A stretch of 64,000 nt of DNA from Actinomycetota bacterium (GCA_016870975.1 VGAE01000006.1:1-64000), one strand, 5' to 3'. Positions 9,774 to 64,000 are shown, counted from the first letter of the stretch. A program made the numbers and translations. Notes: generated by a model not told the origin, from the letters alone.

Positions 9774-10024
9774 AACTACTCACCTACCCATTTTTGATAT
9801 TGATTCGCGGTTGGCAGAAATTTATTGCTTCTGGTTTAGCGCCGCGCTGTAAATATTATCCATCCTGTTCTCATTACACATTTGATGCAATCAAGAAGTA
9901 CAACTTGTTTGGATTGCTTTTAGGAGCATGGCGAGTAGTTCGCTGTAATCCTTTTAGTCATGGCGGCGTTGATTATGTACCAGAGAAGATTCACTTTGGA
10001 CCTATCAGATTAGGAGCTAGATAG
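9770..10024 (+). CDS. yidD: Membrane protein insertion efficiency factor YidD
   Basis: CKYYPSCSHYTFDAIKKYN, RCNPFSHGGVDYVPE. Confidence 0.95.
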   Translation: MKLLTYPFLILIRGWQKFIASGLAPRCKYYPSCSHYTFDAIKKYNLFGLLLGAWRVVRCNPFSHGGVDYVPEKIHFGPIRLGAR

Positions 10025-44394: not shown

Positions 44395-44460
44395 GCGCAG
44401 ATGGCGAAATAGCAGTCGTGCTGGCTTCAGGTACCAGTACTCGCAAGGCCCCTCCGCGCA
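44395..44460 (+). pseudogene. Degenerate tRNA-Leu(CAG), missing part of variable arm and T-arm
   Basis: GCGCAGATGGCGAAATAGCAGTCGTGCTGGCTTCAGGTACCAGTACTCGCAAGG...CCCCTCCGCGCA: Leu-type acceptor/D/anticodon arms with CAG anticodon, then an abrupt jump to a 3' acceptor; stem mismatches. Confidence 0.75.
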
Positions 44461-44491
44461 AGCTAACTCTTCACTTGAGTATCCTTACGCA

Positions 44492-52991: not shown

Positions 52992-54097
52992 AGCGCTTAA
53001 TAATCCATCCCGGATTTCATAAATCTGGAACTACCGCTCTACAACAATCACTTCATGCCAATCGCCATCGCCTTACAGATCTTGGCCTTTCATATCCATT
53101 TCCCAGACACCGAGCCCATCATCGATTAGCTTGGTCGTTAAGCGGGAAAGTTTGGGGTTGGCTTAATCGCGGCGGCAGTGGTGAATCGCCACAACTGTGG
53201 AGTAAATCAGTCAGAAGCATTAATCGTTCCAGCGGCAAAAACATAATAATTAGTAGTGAGTTCTTCTCGGAGATAGATCTTGAGACAATAACGAGAATTA
53301 AGAATGAGATAAAGAAACACGAAATCGAAATTCTTTTCACGCTTCGTCCACTCGCCAAACTTCTCTCTTCTTCCTATCAACAGTATTTAAAATATGGTTT
53401 GAAAGCAGATTACGAAGAGTGGCTCCATTCGGTTTTAGATGCCCCCGGTGAATCCAAGTTAAGTCCAACCTTCTGGCGGAGGCATTTTCATGGCCAAGTA
53501 ATCTCTAGATGGAGTGAGGTCTTTGGCCCATCAAAGGTCACGGTATTAATAATTGATGAGAGCCAGCCAGAATTTCTCTTTACTGAAGCCAATACATACC
53601 TGGGGCTCCCAGAAAGAACTCTTCAGGCACAAGAAACCGGCTTGAACCGCTCCATGACCACTGAGGAGATCGCGCTAATTCTTGAAATCAATCGCCGGTT
53701 TCCAAAAGAACGCACATGGAATGAGTATCGAGTATTTATCCGCAATGGCTTTATTCGCGAGATAACTGATAACTCAAAAGTTGCAGCCGGGAAAGAGAAG
53801 TTATTAACTCCGAAATGGGCGGTTGATATCGCTAATTCCCTAGGTAAAGATTCAAAAAATCAGATTTTAGAATCCGGCGTCAAGGTAATCGGAGATATTA
53901 ATTCGTTAGATAGAGTAGAAATCCCTACGGGAACCTCGACAGTACCTGCAACTATTGATGTTAATACAGTTGCAACTGCAATGCTTTCAATGGATAAGAA
54001 ACTTATTTCTCATGTTCCAATTACATGGCTGAGAAGGAATTTGATTTATCGAATTCGCCGAGGCCTACGCCGAGCGCTATCTCCAAAGCGAAGCTAG
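52988..54097 (+). CDS. Sulfotransferase-like P-loop protein
   Basis: N-terminal IIHPGFHKSGTTALQQSL resembles the PAPS-binding loop; internal FTLRPLAKLLSSSYQQYLKYG. Confidence 0.65.
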   Translation: MKRLIIHPGFHKSGTTALQQSLHANRHRLTDLGLSYPFPRHRAHHRLAWSLSGKVWGWLNRGGSGESPQLWSKSVRSINRSSGKNIIISSEFFSEIDLETITRIKNEIKKHEIEILFTLRPLAKLLSSSYQQYLKYGLKADYEEWLHSVLDAPGESKLSPTFWRRHFHGQVISRWSEVFGPSKVTVLIIDESQPEFLFTEANTYLGLPERTLQAQETGLNRSMTTEEIALILEINRRFPKERTWNEYRVFIRNGFIREITDNSKVAAGKEKLLTPKWAVDIANSLGKDSKNQILESGVKVIGDINSLDRVEIPTGTSTVPATIDVNTVATAMLSMDKKLISHVPITWLRRNLIYRIRRGLRRALSPKRS

Positions 54098-55528
54098 CCA
54101 CGCCTCAATCTCATCGGGATGTCTTGGCATAGCGCTACTTAAGTTTCGGCAACCATCTTTAGTAACAAGTACGTCATCTTCAATTCGCACTCCAATACCT
54201 CGATATTGCTCTGGGAATAGAGCGTCATCCGGGTGGATATAGATCCCGGGCTCAACTGTAAGAATCATCCCTGGTTCGAGAATTCCGTCCGAATAAGCCT
54301 CGTTACGAGCATGAGCACAATCGTGTACATCCATCCCCAACATATGACCGGTACCGTGAACTGTCCAACGACGATGTAATCCACTCTCCGGCTTGAGCGA
54401 TTCTTCAGGAGAAATCGGTAGCACTCCTAATTTCGACAATCCCTCCGCTACAACTTTCATAGCTGCTACATGAAAATCGCGGAATTTGGCTCCTGGCTTC
54501 ACCGCTTTAATTCCAGCTGACTGTGCTTCATAAACTAATTCATATATCTCTCGCTGGGCGGGCGTGAATTTCCCATTGATGGGAAGCGTTCGAGTTATGT
54601 CAGCGGTGTAAAGCGAATCAACTTCAACGCCAGCATCAATTAAAAGTAAATCACCATTCTTTAATTCGCCATCGTTCTTTATCCAATGAAGGATACAGGC
54701 ATGTGCACCCGATGCAACGATGCTGTCATAACCAATGTCATTACCTTCAAACCTTGCTCGGGTAAAAAAAGCGCCTTCGATTAATCGCTCACCTCGTTTT
54801 TTACCAACAGTATTTGGGATTGCTCGAATCATCTCTTCAAATCCGCGATGAGTTGCGTCGATTGCTTTCTGCATCTCATCAATCTCAAATTGATCTTTAA
54901 TCAACCGAGCTTCAGAAAGCCAGATTACGAATTCTTGATCACCCTTATTTTCTGGAACTAATTCATCTACCAAAGCATCTTCATGGCGGAGTGCAAGAGA
55001 TTCCTTTTTAACTCCAAGAAAGTCCTCAAGAGTTGATAAATGTTGGACCTTGATATCGAAGGCAAATTCAGTTTCTTCTAAAGTCATCCGGCGCCCAACC
55101 CAGAATTCACCATATTTTGAATTGCGATAGAACTCCTCACTTTTCTCTCTAGGCGATCGCGGATGAATGAAAAGAATTGATACATGGCCAGAGTTCGTGG
55201 GCTCCATAACTAAAACTGAATCAGGAACTGCTTCGCATCCGTTTATTCCTGTACTCCAAGAAAATGCAGAGTGGGGGCGGAATCGATAATCGGTATCGTT
55301 ACTTCGAACTTTGTAATTTCCAGCAGGAATTACCAATCTTTTTCCAGGAAATGCCTTAGAAAGCTTTTCTCGTCGCGCAACCGCCCACGAAGTAGCTGGA
55401 CTCTTCTTAAGATCCTGAAGTGGTGAAGGTGCCCAACCTTCTTCCATGAATTTTTTTAGCGGCTCAGGAGTCGGAAGGTCATAGTTGCGATAAATAGATC
55501 GCCTCAGCTTCTCCTCATCAAAACTCAT
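54077..55528 (-). CDS. pepP: Xaa-Pro aminopeptidase (M24B)
   Basis: LLIDAGVEVDSLYTADITRTLP, HGTGHMLGMDVHD, LEPGMILTVEPGIYI, GIGVRIEDDVLVT; start at MSFDEEKL (track start 55603 runs into tRNA-Ser). Confidence 0.92.
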   Translation of the reverse strand: MSFDEEKLRRSIYRNYDLPTPEPLKKFMEEGWAPSPLQDLKKSPATSWAVARREKLSKAFPGKRLVIPAGNYKVRSNDTDYRFRPHSAFSWSTGINGCEAVPDSVLVMEPTNSGHVSILFIHPRSPREKSEEFYRNSKYGEFWVGRRMTLEETEFAFDIKVQHLSTLEDFLGVKKESLALRHEDALVDELVPENKGDQEFVIWLSEARLIKDQFEIDEMQKAIDATHRGFEEMIRAIPNTVGKKRGERLIEGAFFTRARFEGNDIGYDSIVASGAHACILHWIKNDGELKNGDLLLIDAGVEVDSLYTADITRTLPINGKFTPAQREIYELVYEAQSAGIKAVKPGAKFRDFHVAAMKVVAEGLSKLGVLPISPEESLKPESGLHRRWTVHGTGHMLGMDVHDCAHARNEAYSDGILEPGMILTVEPGIYIHPDDALFPEQYRGIGVRIEDDVLVTKDGCRNLSSAMPRHPDEIEAWLASLWR

Positions 55529-55590
55529 AAAACGAGCGTACTCCTGGCAAAAGTAAGGCGATAAATTAGCGGTAAACTCTCCGAGTAATG

Positions 55591-55679
55591 GGAGACGTCG
55601 CATAGCCCGGTCTAGTGCGCCTCACTGCTAATGAGGTTTTCCCGAAAGGGAATCGGAGGTTCAAATCCTCTCGTCTCCG
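55591..55679 (+). tRNA. tRNA-Ser(GCT)
   Basis: GGAGACGTCGCATAGCCCGGTCTAGTGCGCCTCACTGCTAATGAGG...GGAGGTTCAAATCCTCTCGTCTCCG; anticodon GCT. Confidence 0.95.
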
Positions 55680-55680
55680 C
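55622..55680 (+). repeat. Direct repeat copy 1 (attL-like), 3' part of intact tRNA-Ser(GCT)
   Basis: 59 nt matching 62506-62564 at 58/59 positions (C55670 versus G62554). Confidence 0.9.
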
Positions 55681-55813
55681 AAGGATTACACATGCTTCTT
55701 ACAGAGTTGAATCAACACCGGTTGCGGTCTGTGGCGACGCACCAATCCTTCTAAAGTCGACTTAGGGTGGTTACAACTAGTTCAGACTAGGCCGAAATAA
55801 GGGCTAAAGGGTA

Positions 55814-55863
55814 TTGACTAACGCTGAACAGAGGATTAGTTTGTTCGCGTGACGAACAAACTA
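55814..55863 (+). promoter_or_regulatory. Promoter plus operator-like inverted repeat over the ROK gene start
   Basis: TTGACT (55814-55819), 17-nt spacer, TAGTTT (55837-55842); perfect IR TAGTTTGTTCG (55837-55847) / CGAACAAACTA (55853-55863) around cGTGa. Confidence 0.75.
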
Positions 55864-57024
55864 GCTGGAAATCTTGAATTTGATACCACCTATTCAAATA
55901 AGCAGATAATTTTTCAACTTTTTTGCAGTCACGAATCAATTTCAAGAGCAGAACTTTCTCGTATGACAGGGTTGTCCAAACAAACGGTCTCATCGGCAAT
56001 CTCGGGTCTAGAAGCCATGAAACTTGTGACGCCTGTGGGTAGTACAAAGGGTCATATAGGACGTCGCGCCATTACATATCGCTTATCACCTAGTGCAAGT
56101 TTTGCAGTCGGCATTGACCTCGGAGGAACAAGTCTTAGATCAGGTCTCATTGACTTTTCAGGCGAGGTTCGAAGTGAATTTTCTCGATTGACCCCGTTGA
56201 CCAACTTAAATGATTTAATCCAGGCTATTTTAAATTCAATACAAACATTAAAGAATCAAGCGGGCGTTAAAGAAGAAATTGATCTCTTAGTAATTGGCGT
56301 ACCCGGCGTGGTGCATCCGGTAACAGGAGTAGTATCCATGGCACCAAATGTTGAATACTTAAACGGCGTAGATTTAAGGAAACAGCTAAAGGAATACTTT
56401 AAATTTGAAGTTATTATTGAAAATGACATCAATCTAGCAGCGGTCGGGGAAAAAGATTCGCTCAAGTTGGAAGATTTTGTTTTTATATCTCTTGGCACTG
56501 GAATTGGTATGGCAGTCGTCCTGGATGGAAAGCTTCGTAGGGGTTCCAAAGGCGGCGCTGGAGAAATTGGGTACATGCTTTTTGATATATTCGACGAAAA
56601 TATTCTCAATCCTAAAATACTAGAAGATATGTTAGGCGGAAAAGCTCTAGAAAAATTGTACAAAGGAAATACCGGAAATCAACTTACAGTGGAAGAAATT
56701 TTCCTACTTGCTAAAAATAATGATGAATATGCCTCATTTCTTACAAAGAATATGGTGAAGCAATTGTCGTCATGTCTACGAAATATAATTGCAATATTAG
56801 ACCCGGCCACAATCATAATGGGTGGAGGAATTGGATCCCGCAAAGACGTCTTAAGTGAACTTAAAAAGAGCTTACAAAATCAAGTCAATCAAGAATTTGA
56901 TATTCGAACTACCTCCCTAGGCTCAAGAGCAGGAATTGTGGGTGCAATGTCTTTAGCTGTGAAGGAGATTAGAGATACAGCAATAGATAAAGGTCAAAAG
57001 TTGGATTATGGTGTGACATCATGA
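55849..57024 (+). CDS. ROK family transcriptional regulator
   Basis: N-terminal HTH (SRAELSRMTGLSKQTVSSAISGLEAMKLV), GIDLGGTSLRSGLID, GTGIGMAVVLDGKLRRGSKGGAGEIGY. Confidence 0.9.
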   Translation: MTNKLAGNLEFDTTYSNKQIIFQLFCSHESISRAELSRMTGLSKQTVSSAISGLEAMKLVTPVGSTKGHIGRRAITYRLSPSASFAVGIDLGGTSLRSGLIDFSGEVRSEFSRLTPLTNLNDLIQAILNSIQTLKNQAGVKEEIDLLVIGVPGVVHPVTGVVSMAPNVEYLNGVDLRKQLKEYFKFEVIIENDINLAAVGEKDSLKLEDFVFISLGTGIGMAVVLDGKLRRGSKGGAGEIGYMLFDIFDENILNPKILEDMLGGKALEKLYKGNTGNQLTVEEIFLLAKNNDEYASFLTKNMVKQLSSCLRNIIAILDPATIIMGGGIGSRKDVLSELKKSLQNQVNQEFDIRTTSLGSRAGIVGAMSLAVKEIRDTAIDKGQKLDYGVTS

Positions 57025-58250
57025 AGTTCTCAGTCCAGAAACAACCGGATCAAGCTCTTTCAAGATTGCAGTCCGTGATTAAGATTCCCAGTGTCACTGG
57101 AAATGAAGACAAACTAGCTTCGTATCTGTTTGACGAACTCAGTAAGTTAAAACCGAACATTCTAGAATTACAAAAGGGAACAAGTTTTCGTTCAAACGTT
57201 ATCGCGGTGTTTGAAGGTGAGGAGAAAGATGCACTGCTCCTGATAGCTCATTTAGATACAGTTTCAACGAATGGATGGACAGAGTATTGGACCGGCAAGG
57301 ATGAATCTCGGTGTGATCCACACTGTGGAGTTTTGATAGACGGGAAAATTTGGGGTCGAGGTGCCTCAGATACAAAAGGTGGAATCGCGACCGTTATTTC
57401 CGCACTTGAAAGTATAAAAAAGTCAGCCGGGAAGCAAAGCAAGACGGTAGTAGTGGCATTTGTTTCCGATGAAGAGTCTGGAGAGCCCGGCATGGGACTA
57501 AGTCTTGGCATAAAGTCAGCAATTCCATTTTTGCAGGGTTTAAGTCTTCCTTTTAGATTGGCAATTTATCTTGAGCCAACAAAACTTGATATTTATGTCG
57601 CACAGATGGGGTTTCAAATAGTGGATATAGCAATTCAAGGAAAGACAGCCTATTTTGGTACTCCAGAATTAGGTATTGATGCCTTGAAGATCACGCATGA
57701 TGTCTTGAGCGCTTTATGGAAATTGAATGAAGAAATGAAGTTAGGCGGTAGACATGAACTAATTGGAGAATCAAATTTATTGGTGACTTCACTTTCTTCA
57801 GGAGGTTTAATCGCCGTCCCAGGAACTAGCTCATTAAGCTTAATTAGAAAATTAAGACCCGGGGAATCTTTAGATAGTTCTGCAGAAAGACTGCGTGATG
57901 TTATTCACTCGGTATCGATACCAGATGGCGCGAGTATAGACATCAAATTTTCTGCATCTAGAGATCATCCGACCGGTGGTACTCCGATTGAGAATTCAAT
58001 CAATTTGGATTTGATTTCACTTCAAAAAACCGTAAAGAACATCTCGTCCAACGCTGGCAATTTTATTGGTGCACCGTATTGGTCGGAAGCACCCTTAGTT
58101 AATGATGCGCTTGGCATCCCGTGTGTTTACTGGGCGGGTGGCGATATCTCTGTCTGCCATACACCTCAAGAGCACATCGAATTACAGCAATATAACGACG
58201 CAATAGTCTCATTGGCGAGCTTCATGGAGTTGCCATGGCCGTCTATGTAG
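57021..58250 (+). CDS. M20 family metallopeptidase/deacylase
   Basis: LLIAHLDTVS, GRGASDTKGGIATVISAL, SDEESGEPG, CHTPQEHIEL. Confidence 0.9.
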   Translation: MKFSVQKQPDQALSRLQSVIKIPSVTGNEDKLASYLFDELSKLKPNILELQKGTSFRSNVIAVFEGEEKDALLLIAHLDTVSTNGWTEYWTGKDESRCDPHCGVLIDGKIWGRGASDTKGGIATVISALESIKKSAGKQSKTVVVAFVSDEESGEPGMGLSLGIKSAIPFLQGLSLPFRLAIYLEPTKLDIYVAQMGFQIVDIAIQGKTAYFGTPELGIDALKITHDVLSALWKLNEEMKLGGRHELIGESNLLVTSLSSGGLIAVPGTSSLSLIRKLRPGESLDSSAERLRDVIHSVSIPDGASIDIKFSASRDHPTGGTPIENSINLDLISLQKTVKNISSNAGNFIGAPYWSEAPLVNDALGIPCVYWAGGDISVCHTPQEHIELQQYNDAIVSLASFMELPWPSM

Positions 58251-58305
58251 ATGTAGTACCTGCCGGCTCATGCTGGAGGAAACCTAAAAGGAAGGAAAAA
58301 TCAAG

Positions 58306-59385
58306 GTGAAAGACAAAAAAACAATAGCAAAAACCCTATTGCTTGTCTCGGCGCTAATCGTGGGTTCTACTCCGAATTCATATGCAGCTTCGGCAGTTAC
58401 TCAGGGCCCAAATGGAGAAAAAGCAACAGCATGTAAAACCATAAAAGTAACTACTAGCCAAAAGAACCAGGTTAAGAATGGCAAGTTTTCAGCTGCTCTT
58501 TTGTGGCACACATCTGGGGAATTTGTTGATGCAGTTAATTCAGGCGCAAGCGATACATTCAAATCTTTAGGTGTAAAAGTTGTTGCGACCGCTGATGCGC
58601 AATTCGATGTGGCAAAGCAAAAAGCTAACGTTGAAAATGCAATGGCAAAAAAACCATCTGTGATTCTTGGATTGCCATTTGATGGAGTTGCTGCAGCTGC
58701 TGCTTATAAGCCAGCAGTTGACGCCGGAGTTAAATTGGTATTTCTATCAAACACTCCAGATAAATTCACTTACGGTAAGGAATTTATCACTATAGTAACT
58801 GACGATTTAGCTCAAATGGGAATACAAGCAGCTGACGCATTGGCCAAAGCGATGGGTGGCAAAGGCGAAGTTGGCTACATTTATCATGATGCCACCTATT
58901 ATGTTACAAATCAGAGAGACCAAGCATTCAAAGCTCAAATCCTTGCTAAGTATCCGCAAATGAAGATTGTTTCAGAGGTTGGCTTAGCAGACCCATCAAA
59001 AGGTCAGGAGATTGCTCAAGCAATGCTTACGAAAAATCCGAATCTTGGTGGAGTTTATGTCACCTGGGCACAACCCGCCGAAGGTGTATTAGCAGCTCTA
59101 AAAGCTTCCGGTAATAAGAAAACCAAGATTGTTACTCTCGATTTATCTGAGCCACTAGCAGTAGATATGGTCAAAAATGGAAATGTGGCCGCTTTAACTG
59201 CTGATCAAGCGTATGAACTTGGTTCGTGTATGGCTCGTGCTGGTGCATTAGGTCTTATCGGTGCCACAGTAAAGCCATTTCTAATAGCCCCTGCTTTAAC
59301 TGTTACAAAGAATAATGTTGAAGTGGGATGGAAGCAGTCTTTGAACAAGCCTCTTCCAAAGGCAGTAAAGAAGGAGCTTAAGTAA
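58306..59385 (+). CDS. Sugar-type ABC transporter substrate-binding protein (RbsB/Peripla_BP_4-like)
   Basis: Signal peptide; fold-typical FDVAKQKANVENAMAKKPSVILGLPFDGVAAAAAYKPAVDAGVKLVFLSN. Confidence 0.9.
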   Translation: MKDKKTIAKTLLLVSALIVGSTPNSYAASAVTQGPNGEKATACKTIKVTTSQKNQVKNGKFSAALLWHTSGEFVDAVNSGASDTFKSLGVKVVATADAQFDVAKQKANVENAMAKKPSVILGLPFDGVAAAAAYKPAVDAGVKLVFLSNTPDKFTYGKEFITIVTDDLAQMGIQAADALAKAMGGKGEVGYIYHDATYYVTNQRDQAFKAQILAKYPQMKIVSEVGLADPSKGQEIAQAMLTKNPNLGGVYVTWAQPAEGVLAALKASGNKKTKIVTLDLSEPLAVDMVKNGNVAALTADQAYELGSCMARAGALGLIGATVKPFLIAPALTVTKNNVEVGWKQSLNKPLPKAVKKELK

Positions 59386-59403
59386 GGTAACTACATAGGG
59401 AGA

Positions 59404-59441
59404 AAGTGGCTTCTGATTTCTAAGGAAATCAGAAGCCACTT
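59404..59441 (+). repeat. Perfect 17-bp stem / 4-nt loop inverted repeat between SBP and permease genes
   Basis: AAGTGGCTTCTGATTTC-TAAG-GAAATCAGAAGCCACTT; no T-tract follows. Confidence 0.95.
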
Positions 59442-59460
59442 CAAATCCAGAGGAGATTGC

Positions 59461-60399
59461 ATGAACTTTCTGAGAAGAAATTTCGTCTATGTTGCGTTGC
59501 TAGCAGTTTTTCTCTTATTTGCTCTCTTCCTAAGAGAAGAAGGTTTTCTAACATCAAACAATATTCTAAACATCGTTATTCAAGCGGCTCCCATTACTGT
59601 TATGGCTGTGTTTCTAAACTTTGTATTAGCTTCTCAAGAAATAGATTTAAGTTTAGGTGCAGTAGTTGGTTTATCGGGAGTCATCGCCGCGATAGTGATT
59701 CAGAATGGAGATAATGCCTTTATCGCATCTATAGCGGCGATATTTAGTGGATTCTTCATAGGTCTTGTGAACGGTTTACTTGTAAATCAACTAAAGATTC
59801 CCTCATTTTTATCGACGCTGGCTATGTTAGGGATTGTCACTGGAATTGCTAGATGGATTACTGACCTAAAAACATTTTCCATTACTGACGAAAAATTTGT
59901 GAGCGCTATGGGAAGTGGTTCATTTTTCGGCATTCCTTCATTGGTTTTGTGGACTTTGGGAATTGTATTTTTAGGACATATATTACTTTTCAACACTCGG
60001 TTTGGAGCTTGGGTGCTCGCTGTAGGAGATAATTCGGCTGCAGCCGAATCACTAGGAATTAATGTCAAGAAAGTTAGATTACTAGTGTTAATTCTCGGTT
60101 CACTTGGCGCAAGCCTTGCTGGACTTTTATATGCCGGTCGTCTTCAGAGCGCTTCTTATTCCATCGGCGTGAACGATACCTTGACGGTTATCGCAGCAGC
60201 CGTAATTGGAGGAACTTCCTTATTTGGAGGTCGAGCCAGCATCTATGGCGCACTGGCCGGCAGCGTTTTACTTGCCATGCTTGTGAATGGTTTACTACTT
60301 GCTGGCTTTTCAGTTACACAGCAATTGATTGTTCAAGGAGTTGTGTTAATTCTTTCCATGGCGGTGTCGATCAGAGGAAGAGGGACACATGTTTCTTAA
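59461..60399 (+). CDS. ABC transporter permease (RbsC/FrcC-like)
   Basis: EIDLSLGAVVGLSGVIAA, AVGDNSAAAESLGINVKKVRLLVLILGSLGASLAGLLYAGRLQSA, AAAVIGGTSLFGGRASIYGALAGSVLLAML. Confidence 0.93.
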   Translation: MNFLRRNFVYVALLAVFLLFALFLREEGFLTSNNILNIVIQAAPITVMAVFLNFVLASQEIDLSLGAVVGLSGVIAAIVIQNGDNAFIASIAAIFSGFFIGLVNGLLVNQLKIPSFLSTLAMLGIVTGIARWITDLKTFSITDEKFVSAMGSGSFFGIPSLVLWTLGIVFLGHILLFNTRFGAWVLAVGDNSAAAESLGINVKKVRLLVLILGSLGASLAGLLYAGRLQSASYSIGVNDTLTVIAAAVIGGTSLFGGRASIYGALAGSVLLAMLVNGLLLAGFSVTQQLIVQGVVLILSMAVSIRGRGTHVS

Positions 60400-61585
60400 T
60401 GCACTAATGCGACGGAATCATGAATTCTTGTCCGCAATTGGCTTGTTGCATAAGCAAGGGGTTTTGCCAGCTAATACATACGCCCTCGATCTCAAAAATA
60501 TTGCGAAAAATGCAGCTCTGATAGCCGATAGAGGACATGAACTTGGAATAAATGTAATTGCCATGATGAAACAAATCGGTCGGAATCCTGACGCATGTAC
60601 AGCTATAAAAAATAGTGGGATCACAGATGCCGTGGCAGTAGATTTTGAATGCGGGATATATTCTAAGAAGAATGGTTTAGAAATAGGTCATATTGGGCAT
60701 CTTGTACAAATTCCCAAAGCATTCTTTAATTCCACGATAGAATTAAGTCCAAAAAATTGGACTGTATTTTCAATTGATCACATTCAGCAAATATCAAGCA
60801 TTGCAAAGAATCATAATGTCATACAAAATATATTCTTACGCGTTTGGAATGATAATTGTAAATTCTATCCCGGTCATGAGGGCGGTTTTCACGTAAGAGA
60901 CTTAGAGGAAACTTTAGGACAGATTCAGAGAATAAGTAATGTAAAAGTTAGCGGAATAACTAGTTTTCCCGCATTACTTTTCAATAAAGAGAAAAAAAAG
61001 TTGGAAGTAACGGCGAATGCCAATGCGATAAACCAAGCCTCTGAAAAAGCTGACAATATTTTAGGTTATCAAGTTATTAGAAATATGCCCGGAACCACCT
61101 CGTTAGAGGGTTTAGAGCTACTTGCTAAAAATGGCGCCACTCAAGTAGAACCGGGTCATGGCTTAACTGGCACCACACCTTTGAGTTTTTTTGAGGATAC
61201 TCTTGAAATTCCTTCCGTTGCTTATGTATCAGAAGTTGCACATATTCATAACGGTAACGCTTATGTTTTGGGAGGAGGCTTATATCGAGATCCTGTCCTA
61301 GGTGAAACGCCTTGCAAGGCTGTTGCTATTGATAGCTATGGTGGAATGGAAACTTTCGACGTCGATATGCCAAAACCAGGAGCCATTGACTACTACGCGA
61401 TTCTGTTACCTAATATCAAAGGTCAAGTGCCGCCTATCGGGACCACAGTCGTTTTCGGTTTCCGACCTCAAGTGTTTGTAACGCGAGGCCTAACGACCGG
61501 TGTATTAATTGAGGATAATTCGCCAAGTATGAAGAAACTTTATGCCGCTAATGGTGCAGTATCAGACGTGAATTGGAATAAATAA
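60389..61585 (+). CDS. YhfX-like PLP-dependent enzyme (alanine racemase fold)
   Basis: MFLNALMRRN, TYALDLKNI, MMKQIGRNP, GHLVQIP, YPGHEGGF, TSLEGLELLAKNGATQVEPGHGLTGT, GFRPQVFVTRG. Confidence 0.8.
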   Translation: MFLNALMRRNHEFLSAIGLLHKQGVLPANTYALDLKNIAKNAALIADRGHELGINVIAMMKQIGRNPDACTAIKNSGITDAVAVDFECGIYSKKNGLEIGHIGHLVQIPKAFFNSTIELSPKNWTVFSIDHIQQISSIAKNHNVIQNIFLRVWNDNCKFYPGHEGGFHVRDLEETLGQIQRISNVKVSGITSFPALLFNKEKKKLEVTANANAINQASEKADNILGYQVIRNMPGTTSLEGLELLAKNGATQVEPGHGLTGTTPLSFFEDTLEIPSVAYVSEVAHIHNGNAYVLGGGLYRDPVLGETPCKAVAIDSYGGMETFDVDMPKPGAIDYYAILLPNIKGQVPPIGTTVVFGFRPQVFVTRGLTTGVLIEDNSPSMKKLYAANGAVSDVNWNK

Positions 61586-62316
61586 TGAGTAATTTTTTAG
61601 AAGTAGAAAATCTAAGTAAATCCTTTGGAGCGGTCAGCGCTGTTAGAAATTTTTCTATTTCTTTAAGATCAGGTGAAATAAAGGCACTTGTCGGAGACAA
61701 CGGAGCAGGAAAGAGTACGATTGTAAAAATGCTTTCCGGTGCCTTAAAGCCAGATGGTGGAAAAATTAGCATTCAAGGATCAGAAGTGGTCTTGTCCAAT
61801 CCAGCCCAGGCAAGAAGTTTAGGAATCGAGACGGTTCGTCAAGACCTCGCGATAGCAACTCAGCAACCTATTTTTCTCAATGTTTTTTTAGGGCGAGAAC
61901 TGATCAAGCAACCTTTTAGACTTTTAGACAAAAAGTTAATGCGTAAACAGGCAAATGACCTATTCAAAACTTTAGGAATTTCAATTCCTGATCTTGATCT
62001 TCCTATTGGAAATCTTTCAGGAGGACAGAGGCAGGCAGTTGCAATTGCGAGAGCAGCTAATTGGGGTAGATCACTTGTTATCATGGATGAGCCAACTGCT
62101 GCCTTGGGTGTAGCCGAGACCAAAAAAGTCGAAAAACTGGTGAAAGATCTATCCAGAGAAGGTGTAGCAATTCTCATGGTGTCTCATAATTTAGATCAAG
62201 TATTTCGCTTATCAAAAAATATCTCAGTAATGAGACGAGGGGAGTATGTCGGAGAGTTTCAAACAAATAGAACTAGCGTGAATAAAATTGTCTTTTGTAT
62301 AACGGGGCAAAAGTAG
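61585..62316 (+). CDS. ABC transporter ATP-binding protein (single-domain, FrcA-like)
   Basis: Walker A GDNGAGKST, LSGGQRQAVAIARA, Walker B LVIMDEPTAAL; single nucleotide-binding domain (243 aa). Confidence 0.92.
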   Translation: MSNFLEVENLSKSFGAVSAVRNFSISLRSGEIKALVGDNGAGKSTIVKMLSGALKPDGGKISIQGSEVVLSNPAQARSLGIETVRQDLAIATQQPIFLNVFLGRELIKQPFRLLDKKLMRKQANDLFKTLGISIPDLDLPIGNLSGGQRQAVAIARAANWGRSLVIMDEPTAALGVAETKKVEKLVKDLSREGVAILMVSHNLDQVFRLSKNISVMRRGEYVGEFQTNRTSVNKIVFCITGQK

Positions 62317-62505
62317 AAATCCAAAACACCCCTACTGAATCAGAGGCGTTTTTCGCGTAGGTAGAGAAATTAGCCATGGTTTCAAATTCGTGATTTACCT
62401 TATATTTAGTCAAGCCTTAAGTGTACTTACCAACTCTTTAGCGCACTTAACGCCAGAAATTTAGTCTTGACTAAGTGGCAAACTGGTGTACGGCCCGAAA
62501 GCACT

Positions 62506-62564
62506 TCACTGCTAATGAGGTTTTCCCGAAAGGGAATCGGAGGTTCAAATCCTGTCGTCTCCGC
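62506..62564 (+). repeat. Direct repeat copy 2 (attR-like), 3' tRNA-Ser(GCT) fragment
   Basis: 58/59 identical to 55622-55680; no matching 5' acceptor upstream; T-stem mismatch G62554. Confidence 0.9.
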
Positions 62565-62680
62565 TCAAAACCAACTATATGTCAGAGTTCTCACTTTTGT
62601 GCGTAATGATGCGCGTTTTTATCCATCTTTATCAGTTACCACCATATGTGCTTCCCATCGGTCGAAAACGTGGCTTAGTA

Positions 62681-63745
62681 TCAATTATCTATTAATCTTA
62701 AACCATTTTTAGCATCAAAATAATGGTGATCCTCAACACTACTATCTATTACAATGTCTGACCTATTATCTATTTTTTGTAAATGATCATTATCCACAAC
62801 AGCCGTGATTTGCTGCTCGTTTACTTGTAATGTCACAATTGCTCTCGGCCCCAATTGTTCAATAATTTCAACTTTTGCCTGGGGTGCGTCTGGTTTTGTA
62901 TTCAAGATTTTCACATCTTCAGGTCGGATTCCCCAGATAATTTCTCCGTTTATTGAAGAGTCGATTTTGAATTGGCATCCAGATTCTGTGGTGAACAGGC
63001 CCGATTTTGCCTTACCGCTCATAAGATTCATTCTTGGACTCCCCACAAACCCAGCGACAAAAACATCTTTTGGCTTTCTATAGATTTCTTCGGGTTTACC
63101 CATTTGCATAATTACACCATCTTTCATGACAACCATTACATCGGAGAGAGTCATTGCCTCCTCCTGATCATGAGTTACATAAACAACTGTTGTACCTAAC
63201 CTTCTTTGTAACCTGATAATTTCTGTTCTCATCTCAAGTCTTAATTTGGCGTCCAAATTAGATAAAGGTTCATCAAATAAAAATACTTTAGGGCTTCTGA
63301 TAATGGCACGGCCAATTGCCACTCTTTGCTGTTGTCCTCCTGATAACTCCTTGGGCCTCCTATCTAGTAATTCTTGAATACCTAGAGATTGAGCGACCCC
63401 TAAAACTCTTGTTTTTATTTCTGATTTGTTAAATTTTATTGCTTTCAAAGGAAAGCCAATATTATCTGCGACAGTCAGGTGAGAATAAAGTGCGTAATTT
63501 TGGAAAACCATCGCGATATCTCGATCTTTGGGTTCTAATTTTGTTACAACCTTTCCCCCTATAATAATTTCACCAGAGTTAACAGTTTCTAATCCTGCGA
63601 TCATTCTTAAGGTAGTGGTTTTTCCACAACCTGATGGACCCACTAATACCGTAAATTGACCATCTGGAATTACCAAGTCTAACCCTTTAACTACATCTAT
63701 ATTGCCGAAGGTCTTATAAACCTTTCTTAACTCAATTGTTGCCAT
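62681..63745 (-). CDS. Carbohydrate ABC transporter ATPase (UgpC/MsmX family)
   Basis: VGPSGCGKTTTLRMIAGLE, ELSGGQQQRVAIGRAI, FDEPLSNLDAKLR, C-terminal TOBE-like GIRPEDV. Confidence 0.95.
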   Translation of the reverse strand: MATIELRKVYKTFGNIDVVKGLDLVIPDGQFTVLVGPSGCGKTTTLRMIAGLETVNSGEIIIGGKVVTKLEPKDRDIAMVFQNYALYSHLTVADNIGFPLKAIKFNKSEIKTRVLGVAQSLGIQELLDRRPKELSGGQQQRVAIGRAIIRSPKVFLFDEPLSNLDAKLRLEMRTEIIRLQRRLGTTVVYVTHDQEEAMTLSDVMVVMKDGVIMQMGKPEEIYRKPKDVFVAGFVGSPRMNLMSGKAKSGLFTTESGCQFKIDSSINGEIIWGIRPEDVKILNTKPDAPQAKVEIIEQLGPRAIVTLQVNEQQITAVVDNDHLQKIDNRSDIVIDSSVEDHHYFDAKNGLRLIDN

Positions 63746-63753
63746 CTGTCTCC

Positions 63754-64000
63754 CTAATATTTAATTGCACCACCGCTAATTCCTCTCACTAATCTTTTCT
63801 GAATGAAAAAACTCATAAACAAAACTGGAACAACTGCGACCAAAATTGCTGCACACATTGCCCCTAGTTCAACACCTCTGAACGTATTAAAACTGGCAAT
63901 CTTTACCGGCAGTGTTGCCGAATTTCCCGGAGCAAGAATCAGAGCATAGAAAAGGTCGTTCCAGGATAAAACAAAACCAAATATGGCAGCTGCGCCAATG
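63754..64000 (-). CDS. Carbohydrate ABC transporter permease (MalG/UgpE-like), partial at window edge
   Basis: Reverse-strand translation HIGAAAIFGFVLSWNDLFYALILAPGNSATLPVKIASFNTFRGVELGAMCAAILVAVVPVLFMSFFIQKRLVRGISGGAIKY*. Confidence 0.88.
   Translation of the reverse strand, partial: IGAAAIFGFVLSWNDLFYALILAPGNSATLPVKIASFNTFRGVELGAMCAAILVAVVPVLFMSFFIQKRLVRGISGGAIKY

Follow-up and report, generated by a model that had tools for sequence, protein, structure and literature searches.

Features of the tRNA-Ser(GCT) Locus

The window analyzed in this study, a stretch of 64,000 nucleotides, comprises bases 1-64000 of contig C6 (75,549 bp; VGAE01000006.1) from a metagenome-assembled genome (MAG) of 1.45 Mb in 81 contigs, which was 88% complete and 5.2% contaminated. 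We infer that the MAG represents a freshwater actinobacterium of the Nanopelagicales (acI) with a tiny genome. Toward the right end of the window, an intact tRNA-Ser(GCT) gene is followed by a six-gene operon and then by a displaced copy of the tRNA 3' half (copy 2). The 6.9-kb segment from the tRNA to copy 2, hereafter module 1, is very likely the module nearest the tRNA in a flexible genomic island (fGI) of the additive, tRNA-bounded type, as judged from its sequence and from related loci.

The original prediction of a tRNA-Ser(GCT) gene with a near-identical partial copy was confirmed by ARAGORN and BLASTN. Copy 2 matched nt 32-90 of the tRNA at 58 of 59 positions (98.3%, E=1.6e-25) and was the sole extra copy within the window. 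The lone mismatch, C55670 versus G62554, was located in the T-stem as predicted, on its 3' side, and the pair is broken in copy 2. ARAGORN made no tRNA call at copy 2, and the 5' half was likewise found to be absent upstream of it; the top-scoring match between the 31 nt in front of copy 2 and the native 5' half was not convincing, being equalled or exceeded by 2.75% of random 31-mers from the island. A decayed 5' half directly before copy 2 was considered on the basis of this alignment, which was too weak (P about 0.03) for the claim to be made.

The intact gene is the sole full tRNA-Ser(GCT) copy on C6, and three further full copies are present in the assembly, on contigs C21, C27, and C33. 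The aminopeptidase-like gene AmpP beside the tRNA on C21 and C33 was only 63-74% identical to that of C6. Accordingly, the three contigs were rejected as strain haplotypes of one locus and probably represent congeners binned into this MAG.

Empty Site and Extent of the Island

The order AmpP (minus strand), tRNA-Ser(GCT), fprA, tRNA-Arg(ACG) was found across the genus and family. The check for an empty site suggested in the original prediction was positive, with five congeners (G001, G002, G019, G021, and G022) in which the tRNA-Ser 3' end directly meets the fprA start codon. In the present genome, tRNA-Ser(GCT) and fprA are separated by about 26,370 bp, with fprA located on contig C4. The two contigs share a terminal overlap in which 366 of 370 nt are identical (99%), and the gene order over the join (DhaL, DhaK, solute-binding protein [SBP], RbsA, two permeases, M42, FGGY, MDR, aldolase-like, HIBADH, BtpA, DeoR, and ABM) matches that of G128, a complete genome from another genus. 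The island length of about 26.4 kb follows from this overlap and the shared gene order.

Foreign cargo runs about 19.5 kb beyond copy 2, which is thus an internal module boundary. The two tRNA copies do not bracket the whole island, as had been proposed; the accompanying suggestion of a larger tandem island, with the segment as one of its modules, was upheld, the 6.9-kb segment being the tRNA-proximal part of the ~26.4-kb island. The composition check gave a concordant result, in that the G+C content of module 1 was 0.411, whereas the core averages 0.46 and has no window of equal size below 0.448, and the G+C at third codon positions of island genes was also lower (0.355 vs 0.400, P=4e-5). A tRNA-targeted insertion that left a displaced 3'-half scar is therefore supported by the empty site, the composition shift at the tRNA, the patchy cargo, and independent scars in relatives.

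Relatives differed in the spacing between tRNA-Ser and fprA, which ranged from none (0 nt) to over 9 kb. The cargo differed among C21, C27, and C6. The 13-kb block from DhaL to ABM precedes fprA here but follows it in G128, which indicates that cargo at this locus moves. The proteins of this block had a median identity to G128 of 77%, compared with 66% for 30 core proteins (P=0.003), which is consistent with inter-genus exchange.

Cargo of the Island

The coordinates of the features are listed in Table 1. The six genes of module 1 are all in the same orientation, and profile searches bore out the earlier description of a coherent import and catabolic operon with no recombinase open reading frame (ORF) between tRNA-Ser(GCT) and copy 2. 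Beyond the window, module 2 comprises permeases, SBP, SDR, DhaL, DhaK, Rbs-type ATP-binding cassette (ABC) genes, an M42 peptidase, and an FGGY kinase. The cargo of the island thus appears to serve the uptake and breakdown of particular organic compounds.

Of 296 family genomes, 4 carry the racemase gene of module 1, the present genome being one of them; a phylum-wide sample of 398 genomes added 3 others, at 35-43% identity. The whole six-gene operon was found in the same order in G195 and G231, which belong to a different genus (2 of the 296 family genomes), and a fragment in a third; no tRNA was found near the operon in G195 and G231.

Table 1. Coordinates of features at the tRNA-Ser(GCT) locus and of related tRNA-Arg(ACG) copies.
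Feature	Position	Strand	Remarks
AmpP, Xaa-Pro aminopeptidase-like gene	54077..55573	-	Left core flank; neighbour of tRNA-Ser(GCT) conserved family-wide
Intact tRNA-Ser(GCT), target gene, left island boundary	55591..55680	+	ARAGORN; sequence identical to empty-site congeners
Module 1, ROK-family regulator/kinase	55849..57024	+	Pfam PF00480, E=2.8e-53
Module 1, M20 (ArgE/DapE-type) hydrolase	57021..58250	+	PF01546; TIGR01910 under its cut-off
Module 1, sugar-type (Peripla_BP_4) SBP	58306..59385	+	PF13407, E=1.7e-39
Module 1, ABC permease (BPD_transp_2)	59461..60399	+	PF02653, E=3.4e-36
Module 1, YhfX-like / alanine-racemase-fold pyridoxal phosphate (PLP) protein	60389..61585	+	PF21279 and PF01168
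Module 1, ABC ATPase, last gene of operon	61585..62316	+	PF00005
Displaced tRNA-Ser(GCT) 3' half (copy 2), att-type scar between modules 1 and 2	62506..62564	+	nt 32-90, anticodon arm to 3' end
Module 2 start, UgpC/MalK-type ABC ATPase	62681..63745	-	NF008653 over cut-off
Module 2 remainder, leaving window	63754..64000	-	On to C6 end (75549), then contig C4 up to fprA
Two-hairpin tRNA-Arg(ACG) copies	L103 (G000:C4) about 9808-9950; L201-L215, L218	minus (L103)	

Elsewhere in the window (44396-44465), a decayed tRNA-Leu(CAG) that retains nt 8-54 at 91% identity and has lost the T-arm was observed about 3.7 kb before tRNA-Ser(TGA), where an intact tRNA-Leu(CAG) is kept in relatives.

tRNA Scars in Relatives

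The 3' fragments of tRNA-Ser(GCT) begin at nt 30-32 in G092 (nt 30-92) and in this window, and are somewhat longer or shorter in C21 (called as a tRNA by ARAGORN), L047, and L039. At tRNA-Arg(ACG), the 3' fragments begin at nt 31-33 in G000 C4, G021, G066, and G259, spanning nt 31/32-74/76 in G000, G021, and G066. Most 5' fragments of tRNA-Ser extend to nt 47-53 (L040, L064, L072, L096, and L180), and one stops at nt 31 (L055). Most of the pieces retained at tRNA-Ser(GCT) and tRNA-Arg(ACG) overlap or break in the anticodon arm, which is the pattern expected if the crossover were located there. On C21, a decayed fprA comes after copy 2, as expected for a right end. Two complete tRNA-Ser genes were found in each of G009 and G278, and AmpP fragments lie within the island in G278 and C21; these findings suggest that homologous events contribute too.

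Further structures were observed at these sites. An island is flanked by two complete tRNA-Ser(GCT) genes at L104/L105 (G009:C3) and L184 (G278:C2), and the AmpP-side gene of G009 has a different 3' half, as if brought by an element. The AmpP-proximal tRNA-Ser(GCT) of L072 (WLIQ01000046.1, 2821-2868) is cut past nt 48, leaving a 5'-side orphan that mirrors the usual scar. The sequence CTCAAAACCAWCTAT occurs directly after copy 2 (window 62564-62578) and shortly past both tRNA-Arg copies of G232 (L212 1553-1567 and 2875-2889). The 15-mer CTCAAAACCAACTAT, shared by the stretches downstream of copy 2 and of a tRNA-Arg copy in G232, had three other matches in the family away from tRNAs; its sharing is thus possibly due to chance, and it was not retained as a candidate.

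tRNA-Arg(ACG) Cassettes with Two-Hairpin Ends

On C4 and in a further 13 family genomes from four genera, the 3'-half copy of tRNA-Arg(ACG) has an insert of 75-87 nt in front of it, and a piece of the tRNA D-arm and anticodon stem (GGATAGAGCRTSTG) lies before the insert. Two hairpins (HP1 and HP2) were predicted from the insert in all 14 cases, with GCGUAAGC as the HP1 loop, and the fold z-scores of the inserts tested were -5.2 and -6.3. The arms paired far better with their own partner than with that of another genome (-15.0 vs -7.9 kcal/mol for HP1 and -16.0 vs -6.2 for HP2), and none of 20,000 permutations was as good, the P value being a guide only because related sequences are not independent. 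No Rfam family besides tRNA reached the cut-off at the hairpin loci. Where the left tRNA was visible, the cassettes were about 0.9-2.5 kb and mostly contained one or two exported-looking genes. In genus g11, the terminator after the tRNA-Arg(ACG) copy is the same as that after tRNA-Arg in cassette-free genomes, indicating true occupied and empty sites.

Two arrangements differed from the single cassette. In G232:C12 (L212/L215), one intact tRNA-Arg is followed by two tandem tRNA-Arg(ACG) 3' copies with the canonical two hairpins only at the second, which looks like a two-cassette array on sequence grounds. In G259:C27 (L051/L183/L214), a nearly full 5' half, two hairpins, and a 3' half occupy the canonical position of tRNA-Arg(ACG) after fprA, and an intact tRNA-Arg(ACG) was not apparent within the stretch examined; this arrangement may be a deletion derivative or a functional split gene. 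A comparable split-tRNA and hairpin structure at the tRNA-Ser copies was rejected (z -0.5 for copy 2 of the window and +0.35 for C21).

A joint reading of the two sites is offered tentatively and seems doubtful at present. Streamlined acI bacteria would diversify by means of cassettes that have no integrase of their own and are inserted, through functions supplied in trans, at the anticodon arms of tRNAs. The covarying two-hairpin element of the tRNA-Arg(ACG) cassettes, which interrupts the sequence derived from the tRNA at its anticodon loop, would act, by analogy with attC, as an undescribed cis recombination end (or be a new structured RNA), and the tRNA-Ser island would belong to the same economy although its scar is without hairpins. 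No description of hairpin-ended cassettes was found in the open-licence literature searched.

Proposed Mechanism and Alternative Explanations

In the proposed mechanism, module 1 (about 6.8 kb) would arrive as a circle or as linear DNA bearing a tRNA-Ser 3'-half attachment site (attP) and would recombine at the anticodon arm, which would restore an intact tRNA on the left and displace the earlier 3' half to the right end. Older modules would have been displaced outward likewise, and their scars would have decayed. The least certain step is catalysis by a tyrosine integrase provided in trans by a phage, an integrative and conjugative element, or another element, which is postulated because none was found in the island or in the islands of relatives. 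Homologous recombination within the conserved flanks may play a further part when lineages later exchange cargo.

Recombinases were searched for with a profile built from the four phage-type integrases of the genus, which recovered 34 of 34 ORFs in the integrase loci used as positive control; the profile covers tyrosine and not serine recombinases, and most of the loci searched span just 10-20 kb. No tyrosine recombinase was detected among the 3206 ORFs of the AmpP/tRNA-Ser loci, among 888 additional ORFs, complete genomes included, or among 416 ORFs near tRNA-Arg cassettes and further flanks. A search for attP in phages matched only unrelated tRNA-Ser genes. Matches to PF00589 in G000 were located on C12 and C23 (Xer-like) and on C61 (phage-type integrase), so that supply in trans is possible. 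The C61 locus (L149), in which a 384-aa phage-type integrase lies near tRNA-Ser(GGA) and adjoins an FtsK/TraD-like ATPase, is a probable integrative element and a possible trans-acting helper.

Several results weigh against the proposed mechanism. Neither an integrase nor an attP-bearing free form was seen. No scar was recognizable directly before fprA, and copy 2 does not adjoin core DNA. The putative C6-C4 join relies on overlapping contig ends that differ at 4 positions, and the MAG is 5.2% contaminated. The higher identity of the DhaL-to-ABM proteins relative to core proteins could in part mirror unequal constraint. In addition, a repeat of this kind would result if the tRNA had been duplicated in tandem and a deletion had followed.

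Module 1 might once have carried its own integrase, deleted after insertion, in which case copy 2 would be the plain decayed end of a genomic island. Such loss is classic for tRNA islands, and phage-type integrases are present in the genus beside tRNA-Ser(GGA) on G000 C61 and beside tRNA-Lys on G001 C57; however, the relatives examined likewise yielded no integrase at this locus, so that a single loss confined to this genome becomes less likely, and the 6.9 kb is filled by one operon with the same six genes elsewhere, leaving no gap for an integrase. This explanation is therefore regarded as rather unlikely. A comparably low probability is assigned to exchange of the island mainly by homologous recombination between the flanks (AmpP, fprA, and tRNA-Arg), with the tRNA fragment as a passive passenger of an older event. 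The decayed fprA and AmpP fragment in the C21 island and the G278 AmpP fragment between two complete tRNA-Ser genes point in this direction, and replacement islands of this type are known (PMC7771536 and references therein). Against this, most scars at two different tRNAs break in the anticodon arm, and homologous recombination by itself makes no new 3'-half copies between modules.

An assembly chimera, in which congener reads were joined at the repeated tRNA, might be suspected in a mixed MAG with four tRNA-Ser(GCT) loci on four contigs. It is very improbable, given that the distinguishing base and flanks of copy 2 are unique, that every full tRNA copy has distinct flanks on both sides, and that a similar 3'-half scar is found in G092 and the tRNA-Arg form in the complete genome G066. 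It is hardly credible that copy 2 is itself all or part of a functional tRNA, or a tRNA-like RNA with a regulatory role; despite the 58/59 conservation, it has no acceptor or D-arm 5' half, one pair of its T-stem is disrupted, it receives no ARAGORN call, and the 110 nt in front of it do not fold more stably than shuffled sequences (z -0.5).

Significance and Comparison with Known Systems

Members of the Nanopelagicales have very small genomes and rank with the most abundant bacteria of fresh water. Their diversified carbohydrate transporters have been presented as an example of microdiversity (PMC10872708). The locus described here offers one physical mechanism for this diversity, namely a two-tRNA hot spot (tRNA-Ser(GCT)-fprA-tRNA-Arg(ACG)) at which whole uptake operons are docked and swapped across species and genera. 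The steady lack of an integrase raises the testable question of what moves the modules, for which the conserved hairpin end at tRNA-Arg provides a concrete handle.

Among integrase-bearing systems, Islander-type tRNA islands (PMC4383910) similarly have ends marked by the regenerated target gene and a displaced fragment. An intact tRNA with a displaced 3' fragment and an empty site were both found here; no integrase was found inside the island, and the displaced fragment lies within a composite island that extends beyond it. Tycheposons, as outlined in PMC10872708, are large cargo-carrying transposons bordered by tRNA with a tyrosine recombinase (xerD). Within that outline, the present island resembles them in its streamlined genome, tRNA boundary, and nutrient-uptake cargo, and differs in that no tyrosine recombinase was found, so that it would be a cargo-only form at most. 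Hitcher elements and clusters of attC sites lacking integrases (CALIN; PMC11389934) are likewise recombinase-free cargo needing movement in trans; unlike these, the target here is a tRNA gene and not an integron platform, and no attC was identified, attC models not having been run.

The additive fGI of Ca. Methylopumilus, with recurring tRNA-Lys 3' ends (PMC10872708), also belongs to a streamlined freshwater bacterium and has serial tRNA 3'-end repeats marking the modules of one island, although the phylum and tRNA are different and its repeat is 20 bp compared with 59 nt here. In marine Ca. Actinomarinales (PMC7771536), cassettes at tRNA genes have part of the tRNA repeated at their end, and some adjoin ABC transporters. 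The Actinomarinales fGIs share with the present island a streamlined aquatic actinobacterial host, tRNA-sited cassettes, and ABC-transporter genes beside some tRNAs; the present case differs in its freshwater Nanopelagicales host, in its use of tRNA-Ser(GCT) (and tRNA-Arg(ACG)), and in its catabolic and transport cargo in place of envelope glycan genes. As in Actinomarinales, the same site holds differing cargo in relatives, and a partial direct repeat of the tRNA marks the cassette end. The island is a further case of the known additive, tRNA-bounded fGI.

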